Below, piece after piece: positions 30,901-57,612 of a DNA stretch of 64,000 nt. Below the pieces are notes generated by a model, which did no database searches, was not told where the DNA came from, and saw nothing but the letters and a program-made list of their open reading frames with translations. Numbering within the stretch: the stretch's first letter is position 1; each line of letters opens with the position of its first letter. The DNA lies in NCBI RefSeq assembly GCF_004369205.1, contig NZ_QFGA01000001.1, forward strand, positions 2,108,001-2,172,000. The letters run 5' to 3'. The DNA comes from Pelotomaculum schinkii (lineage in GTDB: Bacteria; Bacillota; Desulfotomaculia; Desulfotomaculales; Pelotomaculaceae). The position numbers and the translations under genes are program-made.

Positions 30901-32448
30901 TCAGCCCATGGCCGGGCAAGGGATCTTGATAACCTGACCCACCTCGATGACATCCGGGTTGGTTATTTGTGGATTTAGCTCCAGGATCATTGGAACAGTT
31001 ACTCTATGAGCAGCCGCAATCTTTCCAAGGGTATCACCGGCCCTAACGACATAATCAATGGGCGGACAGGGGGTCTCGGTTGGAGTAACTGTTGGTACCA
31101 CTTCCTCAGGCACATAGACATCTTGCTGGATCATTTCGGTAACGGTTGCCGATACGCTCAGCACGACCTCGGTATGGACATCCACGCCAACCTGGTCAGC
31201 GCTTACGAACTCCGGCTCAACTGTTACGTCGACATCCATGTCCGGCTTGGCGTCCTCAACGATGACAAAGGTACGGAAATTAAGTTGCTGGTGCAAGGCG
31301 TGCACAGCCTGGTCAGGCTCGGTGCTCACGTAAACAATCTCCACATTTACGTAGCCACGGATGATAACTTTGCCCTTAAGTATTTTGGTATCGGTTATTT
31401 CAGCATGGTCGACAATTGCATCAAGGACTTTCATTATGTCGGGCTTCGACTCAGGAACTGCAATACTTTCTCTCAACACCACCTGGGTGTCCCCGGCTCC
31501 GATTTCGCGGTCTACTTTCAGCTTTCTCTTGGTATAACCTTCCTCATTCTTTAATAGGGTTGGGACATCATGCAAAGTCCTTGTTTCAGAAACAAACACG
31601 GTTAGCTTGATGATAACGTCCGCCCTCAGCGCAGGGTCGATTACCGGTTCTACATCCGCTGCTTCAACCTCTGCCAGCACGTGGACATTCATACCTGGCT
31701 GCGCATCCGGGACCTCCACGAAAGCACTGAATCTGATGGTATGGTGCAGGTCGTGAACCGACTGCCGGGGTTCGAATGCGACATAAAGGATCTGGAGTCT
31801 GACCTCGCCGTCTACAATGACCTTGTTGGCCACCAGTCTCTTATCGGTTATTACAGCCTCCGCCTTGACCTTGAGGATTTTTTCAACTTCCGGCTTTTCT
31901 TCAGGTACTTCAAATACGTCACTGACAATAATCTGCTTGGTTTCTTTGTCCCCAATCAGGTGCTCAACCGTAAGATCCGCAGTCTCCAGGGCCACATTTC
32001 CTGCAGGCGTTTCGGTAAGTATCTCCATCTCATCGACTTGGGTTATTTTTGCAAATGTACTCAATACTGCTGCAACGTCAAATTTACGCGGGTTCCTTCT
32101 GCTGGTAGTCAGGCTCACATCCTCGACTGTAAATTGAACAAAGTAGTCATCTCCAGGTTCGGCGCCCGGCACATCCACATAGGTCGTGAAATTCAAGTCG
32201 TCATCGAATGAGTGGACAGACTGATCCGGCTTAAAAGCAACGTAGGTCACTTGTATAGAGAGTGTTCCTTCTACAATAACTTTGTTGGGGACAACACTAA
32301 CGTTTCTAACTTTGGCGTCTGCTGTTTTTGACAGAATTTTTTCTACATCCGGCTTCGCTTCAGGAACTTCAATCTGTCCCTTGACTACGGTCTGGACTCT
32401 ATTTTCACCCTGGACCAGATTGACTTTAAGCCGTTCGGTTCCAGCCAT
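30901..32448 (-). CDS. Triple-SPOCS (DUF3794) protein with C-terminal LysM, SipL/SafA-like
   Basis: The 515-residue protein contains three SPOCS repeats (about 20-140, 180-300, 330-445), each opening with a VPEAKPDVEKIL/VPEEKPEVEKIL/VPESKPDIMKVL motif, then VIVEGTL/VIVDGEV/VIIRGYV and a VTYVAF-like strand. A Pro/Thr linker leads to a LysM domain (about 467-510; YVVRAGDTLGKIAAAHRVTV). This is the layout of SipL, the Clostridioides difficile protein that ties SpoIVA and the coat to the forespore. The ATG at 32448 follows AAAGGAGGAG. The mother-cell coat-basement role is inferred from the family. Confidence 0.85.
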   Translation of the reverse strand: MAGTERLKVNLVQGENRVQTVVKGQIEVPEAKPDVEKILSKTADAKVRNVSVVPNKVIVEGTLSIQVTYVAFKPDQSVHSFDDDLNFTTYVDVPGAEPGDDYFVQFTVEDVSLTTSRRNPRKFDVAAVLSTFAKITQVDEMEILTETPAGNVALETADLTVEHLIGDKETKQIIVSDVFEVPEEKPEVEKILKVKAEAVITDKRLVANKVIVDGEVRLQILYVAFEPRQSVHDLHHTIRFSAFVEVPDAQPGMNVHVLAEVEAADVEPVIDPALRADVIIKLTVFVSETRTLHDVPTLLKNEEGYTKRKLKVDREIGAGDTQVVLRESIAVPESKPDIMKVLDAIVDHAEITDTKILKGKVIIRGYVNVEIVYVSTEPDQAVHALHQQLNFRTFVIVEDAKPDMDVDVTVEPEFVSADQVGVDVHTEVVLSVSATVTEMIQQDVYVPEEVVPTVTPTETPCPPIDYVVRAGDTLGKIAAAHRVTVPMILELNPQITNPDVIEVGQVIKIPCPAMG

Positions 32449-32533
32449 ATTTACTCCTCCTTTCAAAACTTTTCTATACTAATATATGAGGGTGATTCAA
32501 AAAAGTGCTAAAAACGTAGCGTAAACGAAAAAA

Positions 32534-32637: not shown

Positions 32638-34077
32638 CTAGCCATTAAACATCTGCACAAACATCTTGCCGTAAGGGCCTCCGCTGACTACACCTATCCC
32701 TACTTTGGTGTAGTTGCTGTTTAAGATATTGGCCCGGTGCCCCGACGAGTTCATTAAATTTGCGTGAGCGCTGCTAACCGTGGAAGCTCCGGCCAGGTTC
32801 TCTCCGGCATAGCTGTACTGCACGCCATACTTCTTCATCATATCGAACGGCGAACCGTAGGTGGGCGAAGTGTGGCTGAAATATCCATTGTCAATCATAT
32901 CCTGGGCCTTCATCCGGGCCAGTTTGACCAGGGTCGGGTCGCTTTGCAGGGGCTTCAGTCCCGCTTTTGCCCGCTCCTGGTTGACCAGATTAAGCATCTG
33001 CTGCTCGTCGGCGGTCAGACCGCTGTCCGTGGTAGGTGTTGTGGGTGTTGTGGGTGTTGTAGGTGTTGTGGGTGTTGTGGGTGTTGTGGGTGTTGTGGGT
33101 GTAGTTGGCGTAGTTGGGGTTGACTGAGAACCTGACACCGGCTTGATAAACATCTGTACAAACATCTTGCCGTAGGGCCCCCCGCTGACCACCCCAATAC
33201 CCACTTTGGTGTAGTTGCTGTTTAAGATATTGGCCCGGTGCCCCGACGAGTTCATTAAATTTGCGTGAGCGCTGCTAACCGTGGAAGCTCCGGCCAGGTT
33301 CTCTCCGGCGTAGCTGTACTGCACCCCATACTTCTTCATCATATCAAACGGCGAACCGTAGGTGGGCGAAGTGTGGCTGAAATATCCATTGTCAATCATA
33401 TCCTGGGCTTTCATCCGGGCCAGTTTGACCAGGGTCGGGTCGCTTTGCAGGGGCTTAAGTCCCGCTTTTGCCCGCTCCTGGTTGACCAGATTAAGCATCT
33501 GCTGCTCGTCGGCGGTCAGACCGCTGTCCGTTGGCGCCGGGGATTCTACCGGCGGCTGTGACGGAGTGGTAACTACCTTCTTCCCTCCGGCAAACATCTG
33601 CACGATAATCTTGTAATTACCGCTGGTGATCACCCCAACTCCAACCTGGTCAAAATTGCTGCTCAGCATTTTGGCCCGCGTTGTACTTGAATTCTGCAGC
33701 GCGCTAAAGGCTGAACCGATAGTTGGAGCTTTGGCAATGTTTTCTTCCGCGTAAACAAACTCGATCTGAGCGGCCTTCATCATATCCTGCTGAGACCCGT
33801 AGGTAGGCGAAGTGTGGCTGAAGTAACCGTTGGAGGCCATGTCCTGGGCTTTTATCCGGGCCAGGCCCGAAAGCGCCGGATTTACCGTGAGTTTCGCCAG
33901 ACCGGCGTTCGTCCGGACCTGGTTGATCAGGTCAACCATCTGCGATTCATCGGTAGTCAGGGGGACATAGACGTCTGCCGCCAGGGCTGTTCCCGTTAAG
34001 CCCAGGGTCAGCAGCAAGGCAAAAAGGAACATAAACACTAAGGATCTCGGCCTTAGGCCTTTTGACTGGAAGCTCAT
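32638..34077 (-). CDS. Secreted protein with three CAP (SCP/PR1-like) domains
   Basis: The 479-residue protein has a signal peptide (SLVFMFLFALLLTLGLTGTALA) and three CAP domains, at about 38-165, 185-310 and 355-479. Each has the motifs of bacterial YkwD-type CAP proteins (MLNLVNQERAKAGLKPL; MIDNGYFSHTSPTYGSP; AGENLAG; SSGHRANILN). Domains 2 and 3 are almost identical, also at DNA level (501-base period), and are joined by a (PTT)n linker encoded by a 9-base minisatellite at 33027-33120. CAP proteins occur at the cell or spore surface; no enzyme activity is established for this group. The ATG at 34077 has AAAGGGG 10 bases upstream. Its leader resembles a c-di-AMP riboswitch. Confidence 0.88.
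   Translation of the reverse strand: MSFQSKGLRPRSLVFMFLFALLLTLGLTGTALAADVYVPLTTDESQMVDLINQVRTNAGLAKLTVNPALSGLARIKAQDMASNGYFSHTSPTYGSQQDMMKAAQIEFVYAEENIAKAPTIGSAFSALQNSSTTRAKMLSSNFDQVGVGVITSGNYKIIVQMFAGGKKVVTTPSQPPVESPAPTDSGLTADEQQMLNLVNQERAKAGLKPLQSDPTLVKLARMKAQDMIDNGYFSHTSPTYGSPFDMMKKYGVQYSYAGENLAGASTVSSAHANLMNSSGHRANILNSNYTKVGIGVVSGGPYGKMFVQMFIKPVSGSQSTPTTPTTPTTPTTPTTPTTPTTPTTPTTPTTDSGLTADEQQMLNLVNQERAKAGLKPLQSDPTLVKLARMKAQDMIDNGYFSHTSPTYGSPFDMMKKYGVQYSYAGENLAGASTVSSAHANLMNSSGHRANILNSNYTKVGIGVVSGGPYGKMFVQMFNG
33027..33120. repeat. 9-bp minisatellite encoding the Pro-Thr-Thr linker
   Basis: About ten units of GTGTTGTGG (plus strand) with a few single-base variants encode the repeating PTT linker between CAP domains 2 and 3. 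Copy number is likely to vary by slippage. Confidence 0.85.
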
Positions 34078-34101
34078 GAGTTGATTTTCCCCTTTCTTTG
34101 T

Positions 34102-34257
34102 GCCTCCGGAGTTAGCTGACGGGTTCGGTAAAAAGAATAAACCTACCCTTTGAGAGGTGGGACGTGAGATCTGGGAAGCCGGGTGGTAATGCAGCCGTTG
34201 GGACATTTGCCGCAGACAGCGGAGCGCCTGTCATTTTCCCTCCAACACCCGCTTAAT
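34102..34257 (-). promoter_or_regulatory. Probable c-di-AMP (ydaO/yuaA-type) riboswitch
   Basis: On the minus strand, the leader of the CAP gene contains CCGAACCCGTCAGCTAAC followed by TCCGGAGGCA and AAAGAAAGGGG, close to the 3' half of known ydaO riboswitches (CCGACAGCTAACTCCGGAGGCA is the form I recall from Thermoanaerobacter). GGTAGG and TACC before it pair as expected. The 5' half is less clear: GGAGGGAAAATG, a GACAG/CTGTC hairpin and GCGGCAAATGTCC are in the right order but diverged. A repeat-like GTGGGACGTGAGAT lies between the halves (34158-34171). The 5' limit is approximate. Upstream, 34258-34781 shows no gene or recognisable element. Confidence 0.55.
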
Positions 34258-34781
34258 TGGCTGTTTGAATTTCCGCTTTCCGCAACTTTCGTCTAATGTC
34301 TCATTTCCTTTTTCTCATGTCTTGGCGCACGACTCAATGGGATTCACCCCTGAAATTGGTTCCTCCGTACCCAAATTTATTGAGATTCGGCCTTTATTCA
34401 GTCATCAAGCGCCAGTTAGCTGGTTATTTGGAAAGCTGCGCTATGCGCCCTTGCCAATTACAGCTGCCGGGCCTGCGACTAACATGGTAAAAAAAAATAG
34501 GCATGAACAAGATAATGCTTGTACAGCCTACTATACCTGCTAAAGGAACGCGATGGCAAAGCCGGTAATATTAGTTCAAGACCTAAAATATTAGCAACTA
34601 AGGTACTTAACTACTGACCTTTCAAATTAACACCTAATTAGAAATAGATGTTAAAATGTAGCAACCTGGCTTATAAAAGCTAAACAAATCTGATCTATAC
34701 AGGATAATTCAGATTTTCAATGGTTTTTTTATTCTTCTCTCAACATATTCAGGTATTTTCATAGCAGTTCCAAACCTGCTT

Positions 34782-35248: not shown

Positions 35249-35665
35249 TTACGGGCGCCAGTTTTTGATTGCATTGGGGGTGTAAAAAACCGCTCCTAAA
35301 CCCTCTGTGAGTACCAGACACTCCTGTCCATCCGCCCCATCGACAAAACAGGTCAGAATAAACAATTTTTTCTTCAGCCCTTTTCGAAACCTCTTTAATA
35401 ACAGTTCATCGAGGTTGTTTAGTTTACCAATCACCTGCCTGGAACCCATAACCACCAGGGAATACCGGCCGTCAGCCTGCCTGTTGAGGGAAATCTGTAC
35501 AGGTGTTTCACGGCCTTTACCAGACATCTGATGTATCCCTTCAAGATACTGCCGTGCTACCGCTATGGCCTCTTCTCTGTTATTAAATTTGGGACCAATC
35601 GCTGGAATGTTTTCTCCCAAAAAAGTCAAGGCAGCGTCGCCTGAGAAAACTGACCGGTAAACCAT
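35249..35665 (-). CDS. Hypothetical protein
   Basis: The 138-residue protein has no signal peptide or membrane helix and a mixed alpha/beta pattern (ALTFLGENIPAIGPKFNNRE; EAIAVARQYLEGIHQMSGKG; YSLVVMGSRQVIGKL; KLFILTCFVDGADGQECLVL). AGGAGGC precedes the ATG. I recognise no family. It is grouped with the Gly/Tyr protein and the trypsin-like gene on the same strand, with 97 bases to the latter. Confidence 0.6.
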   Translation of the reverse strand: MVYRSVFSGDAALTFLGENIPAIGPKFNNREEAIAVARQYLEGIHQMSGKGRETPVQISLNRQADGRYSLVVMGSRQVIGKLNNLDELLLKRFRKGLKKKLFILTCFVDGADGQECLVLTEGLGAVFYTPNAIKNWRP

Positions 35666-35762: not shown

Positions 35763-36767
35763 CTAAAATTCAAATCCCAGGCGATCCATCACATTGCTAA
35801 TCCGGTTAAAAATGGTCAACTTATCCGACCCTGCGAACAACAAGCCCACCGCTTTCCGTTCCTGGTCCAGGATCAAAGCTCCGCTGTCACCCGGTTGGGA
35901 TATCAACTCGGTAACAACCTGATCGGAAAACCATACCTTCTCATCTTTGTCCATCTCGACCTGCAGCACTGTGCCGACCGATTTTATAGCTCCGTTGGTA
36001 AGGCCGGTAGTCCTGCCGCTTTTTTGCACCTTTTTGCCCGGCTTAGCCTCCGCCACTCCCGTGATATCGCCTATTTCAAGAATAGAAGGCGCTACCAGGT
36101 CTATTGAATCAATTTTAGCCAGCGCGCAGTCCACCGTGTTCTCAGTACTAAAGCGTTTATAAAACCGGATTTCATAGTCCCTTTTGACTATATTGAGCAG
36201 GAAGTTGCCCCCCCGCGCCACAGACGAGGCCACCGGACAATCCGACCTGGCAACACTTTTCTCCAGGGGAACGTAACGCAAAAGTGTACCTATGCGGTCT
36301 TTGAGCGTTCCTCCATCGTATGGACCTGGTTGCAGGATGGGGTCTCCGGGTTTGGCCCGGGCCTCCTGAATGCTGGAGCCATTGGCAAGGACATGGTTGT
36401 TGGACAACAACATCAGTTCCTTGGTTTGCTTGTCTTTAACCACCGCTCCAAAAGTACCGGCCGTTGACTTGTAGTGTCCTATGCTCACTCCCGGCTGAGC
36501 CGGTCTTTCCCTTGAAGTCCTGACTCCAAGCGCGCGGACAACTCCTATTTCAACCACATCGGTATTAAGCCCGCCTATTTTTTCAGGCACCACATGACCA
36601 CGCATGAGGTTTTCAACAGGCAGCTTTTTTTCCACATAAACAATAAAGGCCGGTTCTCCGGTGTTTTCCGATCCAATCTCCTTATGCCCTATGCCAAGGC
36701 CGACAACATTCTGAAGGCGCAACAATTTATCGCGCGTTTTGTTTAGCGCCCTAAAATACCGTTCCAT
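35763..36767 (-). CDS. Trypsin-like serine peptidase without signal peptide
   Basis: The 334-residue protein carries a chymotrypsin-fold triad pattern: LLSNNHVLA (His125), VDCALAKID (Asp213) and QPGDSGALI (Ser295). The N-terminal 80 residues (VVGLGIGHKEIG; PAFIVYVEKKLP) match the prodomain-like start of similar clostridial proteins. No signal peptide is seen, so it would act in the cytoplasm or mother cell, perhaps on coat proteins; this is inference from its position next to yabG. The ATG at 36767 has AAAGGGGG upstream. Confidence 0.78.
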   Translation of the reverse strand: MERYFRALNKTRDKLLRLQNVVGLGIGHKEIGSENTGEPAFIVYVEKKLPVENLMRGHVVPEKIGGLNTDVVEIGVVRALGVRTSRERPAQPGVSIGHYKSTAGTFGAVVKDKQTKELMLLSNNHVLANGSSIQEARAKPGDPILQPGPYDGGTLKDRIGTLLRYVPLEKSVARSDCPVASSVARGGNFLLNIVKRDYEIRFYKRFSTENTVDCALAKIDSIDLVAPSILEIGDITGVAEAKPGKKVQKSGRTTGLTNGAIKSVGTVLQVEMDKDEKVWFSDQVVTELISQPGDSGALILDQERKAVGLLFAGSDKLTIFNRISNVMDRLGFEF

Positions 36768-36796
36768 GCGCAAACCCCCTTTAATTGATAAAGGTT

Positions 36797-36871: not shown

Positions 36872-37765
36872 CTAATATGGTGAAACAGGTATACCCAACC
36901 GAAATTTTCCTCGTGATTCCATCCCGCCGATGCCGTCAAACCCGGTAATGGTCCCCGCAATGATATCCTTAATAGAAATTGGATCATATATGGAGGTGTA
37001 GGCGATTTTCTCCATTACAAAAACCGGGTCGTAGGCGTGAATCATCACACGCTGCGGGGAACTGGCAAAGTTGGCGCCTGCTTTTAGCAGAGATTCATAA
37101 TGAGATTGGCAGGCGCCGGCAAAAATAACCAGGTCATCCCTGCTTTTCTCATAGTTTCGAGCCACTTTGACCGCTTCCATAAAATATTTGGAGGAGTAGT
37201 AATTATCTATATCTTTAAAATTCTCACGTCCCTTTATAAAACCGTCATGCCCGGTAATTACCAGCATGTCGGGAGCATGCTTTTTTAGGAGGTCCTCCAC
37301 CACCTCAGGCTGTTTCTCCTCAGGGATATTGTAGCCATCGGCGGGAATACTGAGCTGCTTGTAAGTAGTCATACACAAATCCAGGTAATCCCCGTCACCG
37401 TCGATATGGAGGACGGTACCAGGTATATCAAACCCTTCCACCTTGCTTTCTTTCTTGGGAGGCTCCTTGTCGCTGTGCACCGCTCTGCCCCAAAACAGTT
37501 CACGCTCCCTTTGCCGCCGGGCAAAAATACGGCCCATCTGCTCATTACTCTTCAAAGTAACATCCCGTAGACGGGACATCTGTGCGCCTGGGTCTATCCT
37601 GACCAGGTCCTCCATAGGGGCGCTGGCACAGAGTCTTGTATATACTCCCTTCAGCCTGGCGAATTTCTTCCCGTTACTGTATTCAAAAAAATCTATGATT
37701 TTAAAATAAATGTCTACACCATAAGACTTGCGCCCCACAACATCTCCCTTATGAAACTCCTCCAT
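36872..37765 (-). CDS. yabG: Sporulation-specific cysteine protease YabG
   Basis: The 297-residue protein aligns with YabG over its whole length. The residues expected to be catalytic are His173 (VITGHDG) and Cys219 (AGACQSHY), one position from B. subtilis His172 and Cys218. YabG is made in the mother cell and trims coat and SipL/SpoIVA-type proteins. The ATG at 37765 follows AAAAGGGG. It lies upstream of the SPOCS cluster in transcription order, which fits, because YabG processes SPOCS-type proteins in C. difficile. Confidence 0.95.
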   Translation of the reverse strand: MEEFHKGDVVGRKSYGVDIYFKIIDFFEYSNGKKFARLKGVYTRLCASAPMEDLVRIDPGAQMSRLRDVTLKSNEQMGRIFARRQRERELFWGRAVHSDKEPPKKESKVEGFDIPGTVLHIDGDGDYLDLCMTTYKQLSIPADGYNIPEEKQPEVVEDLLKKHAPDMLVITGHDGFIKGRENFKDIDNYYSSKYFMEAVKVARNYEKSRDDLVIFAGACQSHYESLLKAGANFASSPQRVMIHAYDPVFVMEKIAYTSIYDPISIKDIIAGTITGFDGIGGMESRGKFRLGIPVSPY

Positions 37766-37907
37766 GACCAATACCCCTTTTAGGTTTTTCTAATATCATA
37801 TGAAGGGAGTAATGGTATTGGGATAGTGCAAGGTCGGTAACTTTTCATTAATTTTTCCATATATTACACATTAAGAAACCGGTTTTTAAAAACACGGGAG
37901 TGATAAG

Positions 37908-57327: not shown

Positions 57328-57612
57328 ACAAAAACACTCCCTCCTTGTTACCAAGGGGCGGAGTGTTAATTACCCGCGGTACCACCCTTTTTTACCGGCT
57401 TCTCACGAAGCGGCCTTTCAAGGTACGGGGAAGATCGTTCCCGATACCCAAGCCTGGTAACGGCGCTAATCCCGTCGCGACCTACTGTAAGTTCAGACGC
57501 GCAGCTCCAGGGCCATGTTCAGCCGTCCTTTCCCCGCGGGTTTCCACCCAACCCCGCTCTCTGTCGGGTACTAATACCAGCTTACTCTTCCCCTTCTCAG
57601 CCTTTTTGAAGC
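57328..57612 (-). promoter_or_regulatory. T-box riboswitch (tRNA-Met sensing)
   Basis: The minus strand holds the T-box core AAGGGTGGTACCGCGGG (complement of 57374-57390), the AGAGAGC and GTGGAAACC stem I features, and a terminator with arms ACACTCC/GGAGTGT (57334-57340 and 57360-57366) followed by TTTTTG. GAACATGGCC places an ATG methionine codon (57514-57516) in the expected specifier region. Uncharged tRNA-Met would stabilise the antiterminator and raise metG expression. The 5' end is approximate. Confidence 0.9.

Follow-up and report, generated by a model that had tools for sequence, protein, structure and literature searches.

The window, a stretch of 64,000 nucleotides from the genome of Pelotomaculum schinkii (G000 in what follows), carries on its minus strand a gene for a three-domain CAP protein of the spore_YkwD family, preceded by a c-di-AMP riboswitch and with a YabG equivalog and a SPOCS/LysM gene beside it that point to, without establishing, a spore-former setting (Table 1). 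The NCBIfam model TIGR02909 covers all three domains in three stretches (cut-off 171), and the Pfam CAP model PF00188 likewise yields three stretches over its cut-off. The open reading frame as listed begins at 34206, which falls inside the riboswitch, so that translation likely begins at the ATG at 34077; by eye, this codon is preceded by a purine-rich stretch and opens a signal-peptide-like N-terminus. The CAP protein, from a presumably spore-forming lineage, looks secreted. The protein ends with domain 3 and has no C-terminal wall anchor after it. An AlphaFold2 model built from 7 sequences (mean pLDDT 72.9, pTM 0.39) comprises three similar helix/strand units, and its pLDDT falls below 50 at residues 167-183 and 316-351, that is, within the two linkers. 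By sequence, the solved chain nearest to domain 3 is 4ifa_A ("Extracellular protein containing a SCP domain", E 5e-16), and a plasmid search returned 83 records, every one below 60% identity. The same genome has two more single-CAP genes near each other (G000:C1:357831-361014; L003, L005, L010 and L013).

Table 1. Features of the CAP locus, in positions of the window
Feature	Position	Strand	Remarks
SPOCS/LysM gene	30901..32466	-	three SPOCS (SipL) stretches and LysM; spore-coat type; downstream of the CAP gene
CAP gene (spore_YkwD family)	32638..34077	-	TIGR02909, 509.9 bits; start by eye; 479 aa
CAP domain 3 and stop codon	32638..33027	-	ends FNG
Linker between domains 2 and 3	33028..33141	-	38 residues: PVSGSQS, then PTT repeats
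CAP domain 2	33142..33531	-	ends FIK, then the linker's P
CAP domain 1, divergent	33586..33969	-	limits from a profile built in this analysis
c-di-AMP riboswitch aptamer (ydaO/yuaA leader, RF00379)	34085..34402	-	70.8 bits, gathering score 38
YabG sporulation peptidase	36872..37771	-	TIGR02855, 333.8 bits, cut-off 270.4; upstream neighbour

A search of 25 genomes of the family gave a match in 24, and the comparisons below draw on 21 complete orthologues, the window's own included, with one genome per species. Outside this set stand G001, which is 77% complete and has two single-CAP places only, G009 and G023, whose places lie at contig ends, and G018, which gave no match. The named members comprise G013 (Pelotomaculum propionicicum MGP), G016 (Pelotomaculum terephthalicicum JT), G017 (Candidatus Syntrophopropionicum ammoniitolerans), G020 (Pelotomaculum sp. 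SL1-B34.2) and G024 (Pelotomaculum sp. UBA3103), and G002, G021 and G022 are Desulfotomaculaceae bins; the source organisms are presumably all environmental anaerobes. The domains of G014 and G015 are identical to each other. Conserved gene order backs the orthology of the CAP genes: the SPOCS/LysM gene adjoins the CAP gene in 20/20 relatives' loci, the counterpart of window positions 35249-35665 flanks its other side in 19/20 (G010 being the one locus where a search did not find it), and yabG is present in 14/20, some of the remaining loci being short contigs. Three CAP domains are encoded in 8 of the 21 complete orthologues and two in the other 13; none among the 21 has more than three, with G024 scored as at least three owing to a stretch of N within the linker.

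In the window, domains 2 and 3 are encoded by two units that start at 33531 and 33030, both in frame, and are thus 501 bases (167 codons) apart. Their proteins are identical over 128 residues, and the 14 of 384 bases at which the corresponding 128 codons differ are all third-position and all silent (dN 0), which bears out the near-identity and the period that a preliminary description of this DNA had given for the two domains. Nine of the 14 differences are packed into 60 bases near the 3' end, a crowding reached in 0/5000 shuffles that kept codon position (p 2e-4); the longest identical stretch between the units measures 107 bases and is unremarkable by shuffling (p 0.13).

The 9-base repeat noted in the linker between these units is equally real: Tandem Repeats Finder reports 7.6 copies at 33035-33102 with 96% matches (score 129), and this array is both the sole one reported in the CAP gene and the top-scoring one in the window. 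The linker had been expected to vary in length, and between species it does, since the last linker spans 69-249 bases among the relatives (G024, with its assembly gap in the linker, excluded) and the repeat units differ. Units of 9 bases recur in G002 (14.1 copies) and G013 (6.9 copies), longer ones in G022 (33 bases, 3.0 copies) and G021 (36 bases, 5.9 copies), and the same program found no array in the last linker of G017 and G019. Among the two-domain genes the best-scoring linker unit has 6 bases in 5/13, the others having units of 12 to 27 bases. Some relatives have a linker length in common, 108 bases in four of them and 111 in three. We read the PTT array as a changeable and probably disordered tether.

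The history of the twin units is most clearly legible in the comparison with the congener G002, whose three-domain gene resembles that of G000 and whose linker likewise opens PVSGSQS. The protein identity of domain 2 to domain 3 is 92.1% in G002 as against 100% in G000, and over codons 1-108 the dS between the two domains is 0.924 in G002 and 0.074 in G000; between the two genomes, dS over the same codons amounts to 0.594 for domain 3 and 0.538 for domain 1. The interior of domain 2 of G000 is moreover nearer to domain 3 of G002 (dS 0.628) than to domain 2 of G002 (1.013). When domains 2 and 3 of both genomes are compared site by site, 18 sites group by genome, 9 by position and 2 are crossed. 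All 18 sites of the first kind lie at or before base 266, and 8 of the 9 sites of the second kind lie at or beyond base 329, five of them in the last two codons, the ninth being at 218 (Fisher 4e-6 for the split along the copies). With the last two codons dropped, 18 sites by genome stand against 4 by position, three of the four past base 300. Grouping within the genome thus switches to grouping by position at a tract edge, and does so in the G000/G002 pair only: the 7 other genome pairs have just two positional sites outside the last two codons, and the split does not reach significance in the pair G013/G021 (Fisher 0.075). The site split and the dS values together make it most likely that, in the window's lineage, the greater part of domain 2 was replaced by domain 3 sequence. 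We strongly infer that the duplication predates the split of G000 and G002 and that, since that split, domain 3 has overwritten domain 2 from its start to about codon 108. Such copying over the interior of domain 2 would have spared the tails, that is, FIK and P in domain 2 and FNG and the stop in domain 3.

Homogenisation of domains 2 and 3 is probable in other lineages of the family too. The crowding of their differences exceeds all 5000 shuffles in G000, G013, G021 and G019 and is not significant in G002 (p 0.40), G022 (0.35) and G024 (0.55), G017 having been excluded from this test for its unequal lengths. A tree built from the proteins of 50 domains puts the domain 1s into one group (weak support, 60/62) and in most cases joins domain 2 to domain 3 of the same genome, with 7 changes per label of which 6 are forced by starred branches; the exception is G017 and G019, whose domain 2s group with each other, hence by position. 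An interior DNA tree (28 rows, 324 columns) rejects a single clade of the 7 alignable domain 2s (p-AU 1.6e-39) and rejects the union of domain 2 of G000 with that of G002 marginally (p-AU 0.03). Independent duplications could also produce pairing by genome, which is why the congener matters most. On sequence comparison, domains 2 and 3 both prove to be of the type of the relatives' C-terminal CAP domain, with domain 1 diverged. Domain 2 of the three-domain proteins closes with IK or VK and then P in 8/8 cases, an ending present in 0/8 domain 3s and in 0/13 terminal domains of two-domain proteins, and this tail favours, without proving it, one old duplication followed by homogenisation. Among the f4 relatives, the last domain ends FI[KQR]P in 5/6 loci, so that the tail may be ancestral and the family may have undergone several independent duplications.

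The number of domains has changed repeatedly. Judged by a tree built from four genes near the CAP gene (1350 columns), the two- or three-domain state needs at least 3 changes, and on that same topology, some inner branches of which are weak, 3 changes suffice with a three-domain root and 4 are needed with a two-domain root. One of these changes has left a trace in G020, which has two CAP domains and sits inside a clade of three-domain genomes. In its first domain (L027), 29/31 sites of domain-1 type lie at or before base 141 and 46/50 sites of domain-2 type at or beyond base 177 (Mann-Whitney 5e-11); the domain ends FIK-P, as domain 2s do, and is strongly diverged, with an end branch of 1.76 in the 50-domain protein tree. 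By the type of its sites, this domain is the front of a domain 1 fused to the back of a domain 2, and recombination between CAP units must have taken out a domain's worth of sequence. The preliminary description had proposed that recombination between units 2 and 3 would add or remove CAP domains. That part of the proposal which concerns gain and loss holds between species, given eight three-domain and 13 two-domain genes among 21 and the homogenised domains 2 and 3, but the loss that can be seen joins domains 1 and 2, not 2 and 3.

Beyond the family, an order-wide search gave a match in 105/113 genomes, and of the 15 loci outside the family that matched best among those parsed, three full domains are present in 12, two domains in two, and G056 has a deleted first domain. 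In that last case (L114) the first CAP domain lacks its middle, with pieces of about 33 and about 26 residues left in frame. In a quick domain tree in which 31/63 inner branches are open, the family's domains 2 and 3 group with the last domain of other families (SH-aLRT 97), from which it follows that the extra domain of those families sits elsewhere and that, probably, CAP number changed more than once in the order. The three-domain proteins of f4, f5 and f18 were considered as the ancestral form and set aside, as in this quick tree their last domain groups with both domains 2 and 3.

The 3' end of the RF00379 match abuts the purine-rich stretch ahead of the CAP start codon. An RF00379 match above the gathering score lies upstream of the CAP orthologue in 15/20 family loci, one further locus falls just under it (36.7 bits), and the CAP loci of G017, G019, G003 and G006 gave no match; outside the family, the element is present in 6/15 loci. 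According to passages of PMC9960051, a riboswitch of the same Rfam family before the cell-wall peptidase gene nlpC of Corynebacterium glutamicum represses, most likely at translation. By analogy c-di-AMP would repress the CAP gene, and since the aptamer abuts the ribosome-binding region this repression would probably be translational.

Five motif positions were counted in the domains. In domains 2 and 3 of all orthologues the His of YFSH, the Glu of AGEN and the His of SAH are always kept, and the His of SGHR is kept except in two domain 2s, where it is Asn; in domain 1, the His of SAH is lost in 19/21 and that of SGHR in 10/21. The window's domains 2 and 3 retain the three counted His and the Glu; its domain 1 lacks two of the His, SSTTR replacing SSGHR and Phe replacing the His of SAH. 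We take the counted His and Glu positions to be CAP pocket residues. The protein is predicted to be exported to the cell or spore envelope, where the two identical CAP modules on their flexible tether could serve as putative twin binding or catalytic heads; because the twin modules would do the same job, their homogenisation would be tolerated or favoured. For comparison, YlbC of B. subtilis is described, in the portion of PMC6568419 that concerns it, as likely to belong to a sigma-F operon and as having a YkwD domain that occurs only in spore formers. We accordingly picture the CAP protein as a putative component of the envelope of cells that grow or sporulate, which c-di-AMP would repress and in which the two identical modules would act as twin heads.

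Taken as a whole, we hold with good though not complete confidence that an old pair of domains 2 and 3 has been homogenised by gene conversion, that recombination between CAP units has removed a domain's worth of sequence in G020, and that the outcome would be a protein with tethered, putative twin heads under predicted c-di-AMP repression. The competing accounts fall short of this on different grounds. A recent tandem duplication, giving rise to domains 2 and 3 with no gene conversion, would account at once for units whose 128 codons specify the same protein and which have so few bases that differ; yet the congener has an equal three-domain gene with the same linker start, and the differences crowd at the 3' end, precisely where the sites of G000 and G002 group by position. 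The G000/G002 comparison thus disfavours this origin, which we consider unlikely. Strong selection on the protein, acting by itself, would explain the dN of 0 and the conservation of the five counted motif positions in all domain 2s and 3s, the two His-to-Asn changes excepted, but it cannot make silent sites alike, and these have a dS of 0.074 inside the gene as against 0.54-0.92 in the comparisons; we give this account hardly any credence. An assembly artefact deserves as little: many of the relatives are metagenome bins and the linker of G024 contains its run of N, but the identical run between the window's units does not exceed 107 bases, the frame is intact and the contig measures 2.35 Mb, which makes a collapse of the repeat, a concern raised in the preliminary description, unlikely; in addition, 8 genomes have the three-domain form, that of the named strain P. 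propionicicum MGP among them.

There remains the suggestion that the locus is a contingency locus, in which the numbers of CAP domains and linker repeats switch within a species and so vary the surface, in the manner of Periscope Proteins. A pure 9-base array, together with in-frame repeats that are nearly identical, would permit such switching, domain number and linker do differ between species, and G020 preserves a fossil loss. Against it, there are just two near-identical units, no more than three domains occur in the 21 complete orthologues (with the gap in G024), identical copies yield no antigenic difference, the protein stops with domain 3 and so has no C-terminal wall anchor, and the genes around it are of spore-coat type. 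The recombining copies encode identical proteins, so that an exchange between them alters the domain number or nothing, and the route to surface variation that had been envisaged finds no support here; the gene lies with yabG and the SPOCS/LysM gene. In our sample of one genome per species, the protein-identical copies lead us to set aside surface or antigenic variation as the main reading, and switching of this kind appears improbable to us. Returning to homogenisation by gene conversion, a bolder version of it, which we advance only tentatively, is that across the family the twin C-terminal modules are old and have been restored to identity by repeated conversion in one lineage after another, the tails next to linker or terminus alone being exempt. 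Selection would then favour two identical heads while the tether varies freely, and the whole would have come under c-di-AMP control within a cluster of spore-coat genes.

Set against known systems, the protein matches the spore_YkwD family (TIGR02909; CAP, PF00188) in all three domains and differs in having three of them, two being protein-identical, and a proline/threonine repeat tether. With the Periscope Proteins (SasG, Rib, Sgo_0707), as presented in parts of PMC8201768, it has in common, as far as two such units go, tandem, highly identical folded domains, the number of which can change in those proteins by intragenic recombination; there the domains form a rod-like stalk with mostly short linkers, exceptions being named (section 7), whereas the window's protein has only two near-identical units, no C-terminal wall anchor and a 38-residue linker that is probably disordered, as the low pLDDT of residues 316-351 suggests. 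The pattern is that of the concerted evolution of prokaryotic paralogues, in which, in the terms of passages of PMC6053082, copies within a genome are closer to each other than to their counterparts elsewhere, but here it operates among the domains of one gene rather than among genes. The arrangement of an RF00379 riboswitch ahead of an envelope-protein gene is likewise that of C. glutamicum nlpC in the passages of PMC9960051, except that in the window the gene it precedes is of CAP/YkwD type and stands among spore-coat genes. A literature search joining the c-di-AMP riboswitch with the CAP domain returned no paper in the collection covered, and among the matches listed no title dealt with bacterial multi-CAP spore proteins; the words "tandem CAP domains" do occur in a passage of the review PMC10189770. 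The family, the riboswitch and the evolutionary process are therefore already known, and what is new is this well-resolved member. Its relatives preserve successive stages, namely two domains, three diverged domains, three with homogenisation and a collapsed chimera, and they provide a natural example of intragenic recombination both keeping tandem domains alike and changing their number. They also link a CAP protein that has received little study with a c-di-AMP riboswitch and with a cluster of spore-coat genes, a connection that is directly testable.

Two further observations concern the surroundings of the locus. A trypsin/NAL1-like gene beside yabG is intact in the window (35763-36773) and is split after LQPG, at the same codon, by about 3.2 kb in G008 (L086, 8817-13032) and G015 (L088, 8922-13188), with partial views of the split gene in L081 (G016), L089 (G011) and L087 (G014). 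The insert carries a large serine recombinase (PF00239, PF07508, PF13408) along with a gene that resembles those of alcohol dehydrogenases; recombinase motifs were found in L081 and L089 too, and none was seen in L087, a short contig. In L088 the insert has CAGCCCGG at both ends, and in L086 the longest word common to the ends is just 6 bases. As a guess, the insert resembles a skin-type element and might be excised in sporulation. Elsewhere in the window, a T-box leader lies at 57351-57607 on the minus strand (117.7 bits).
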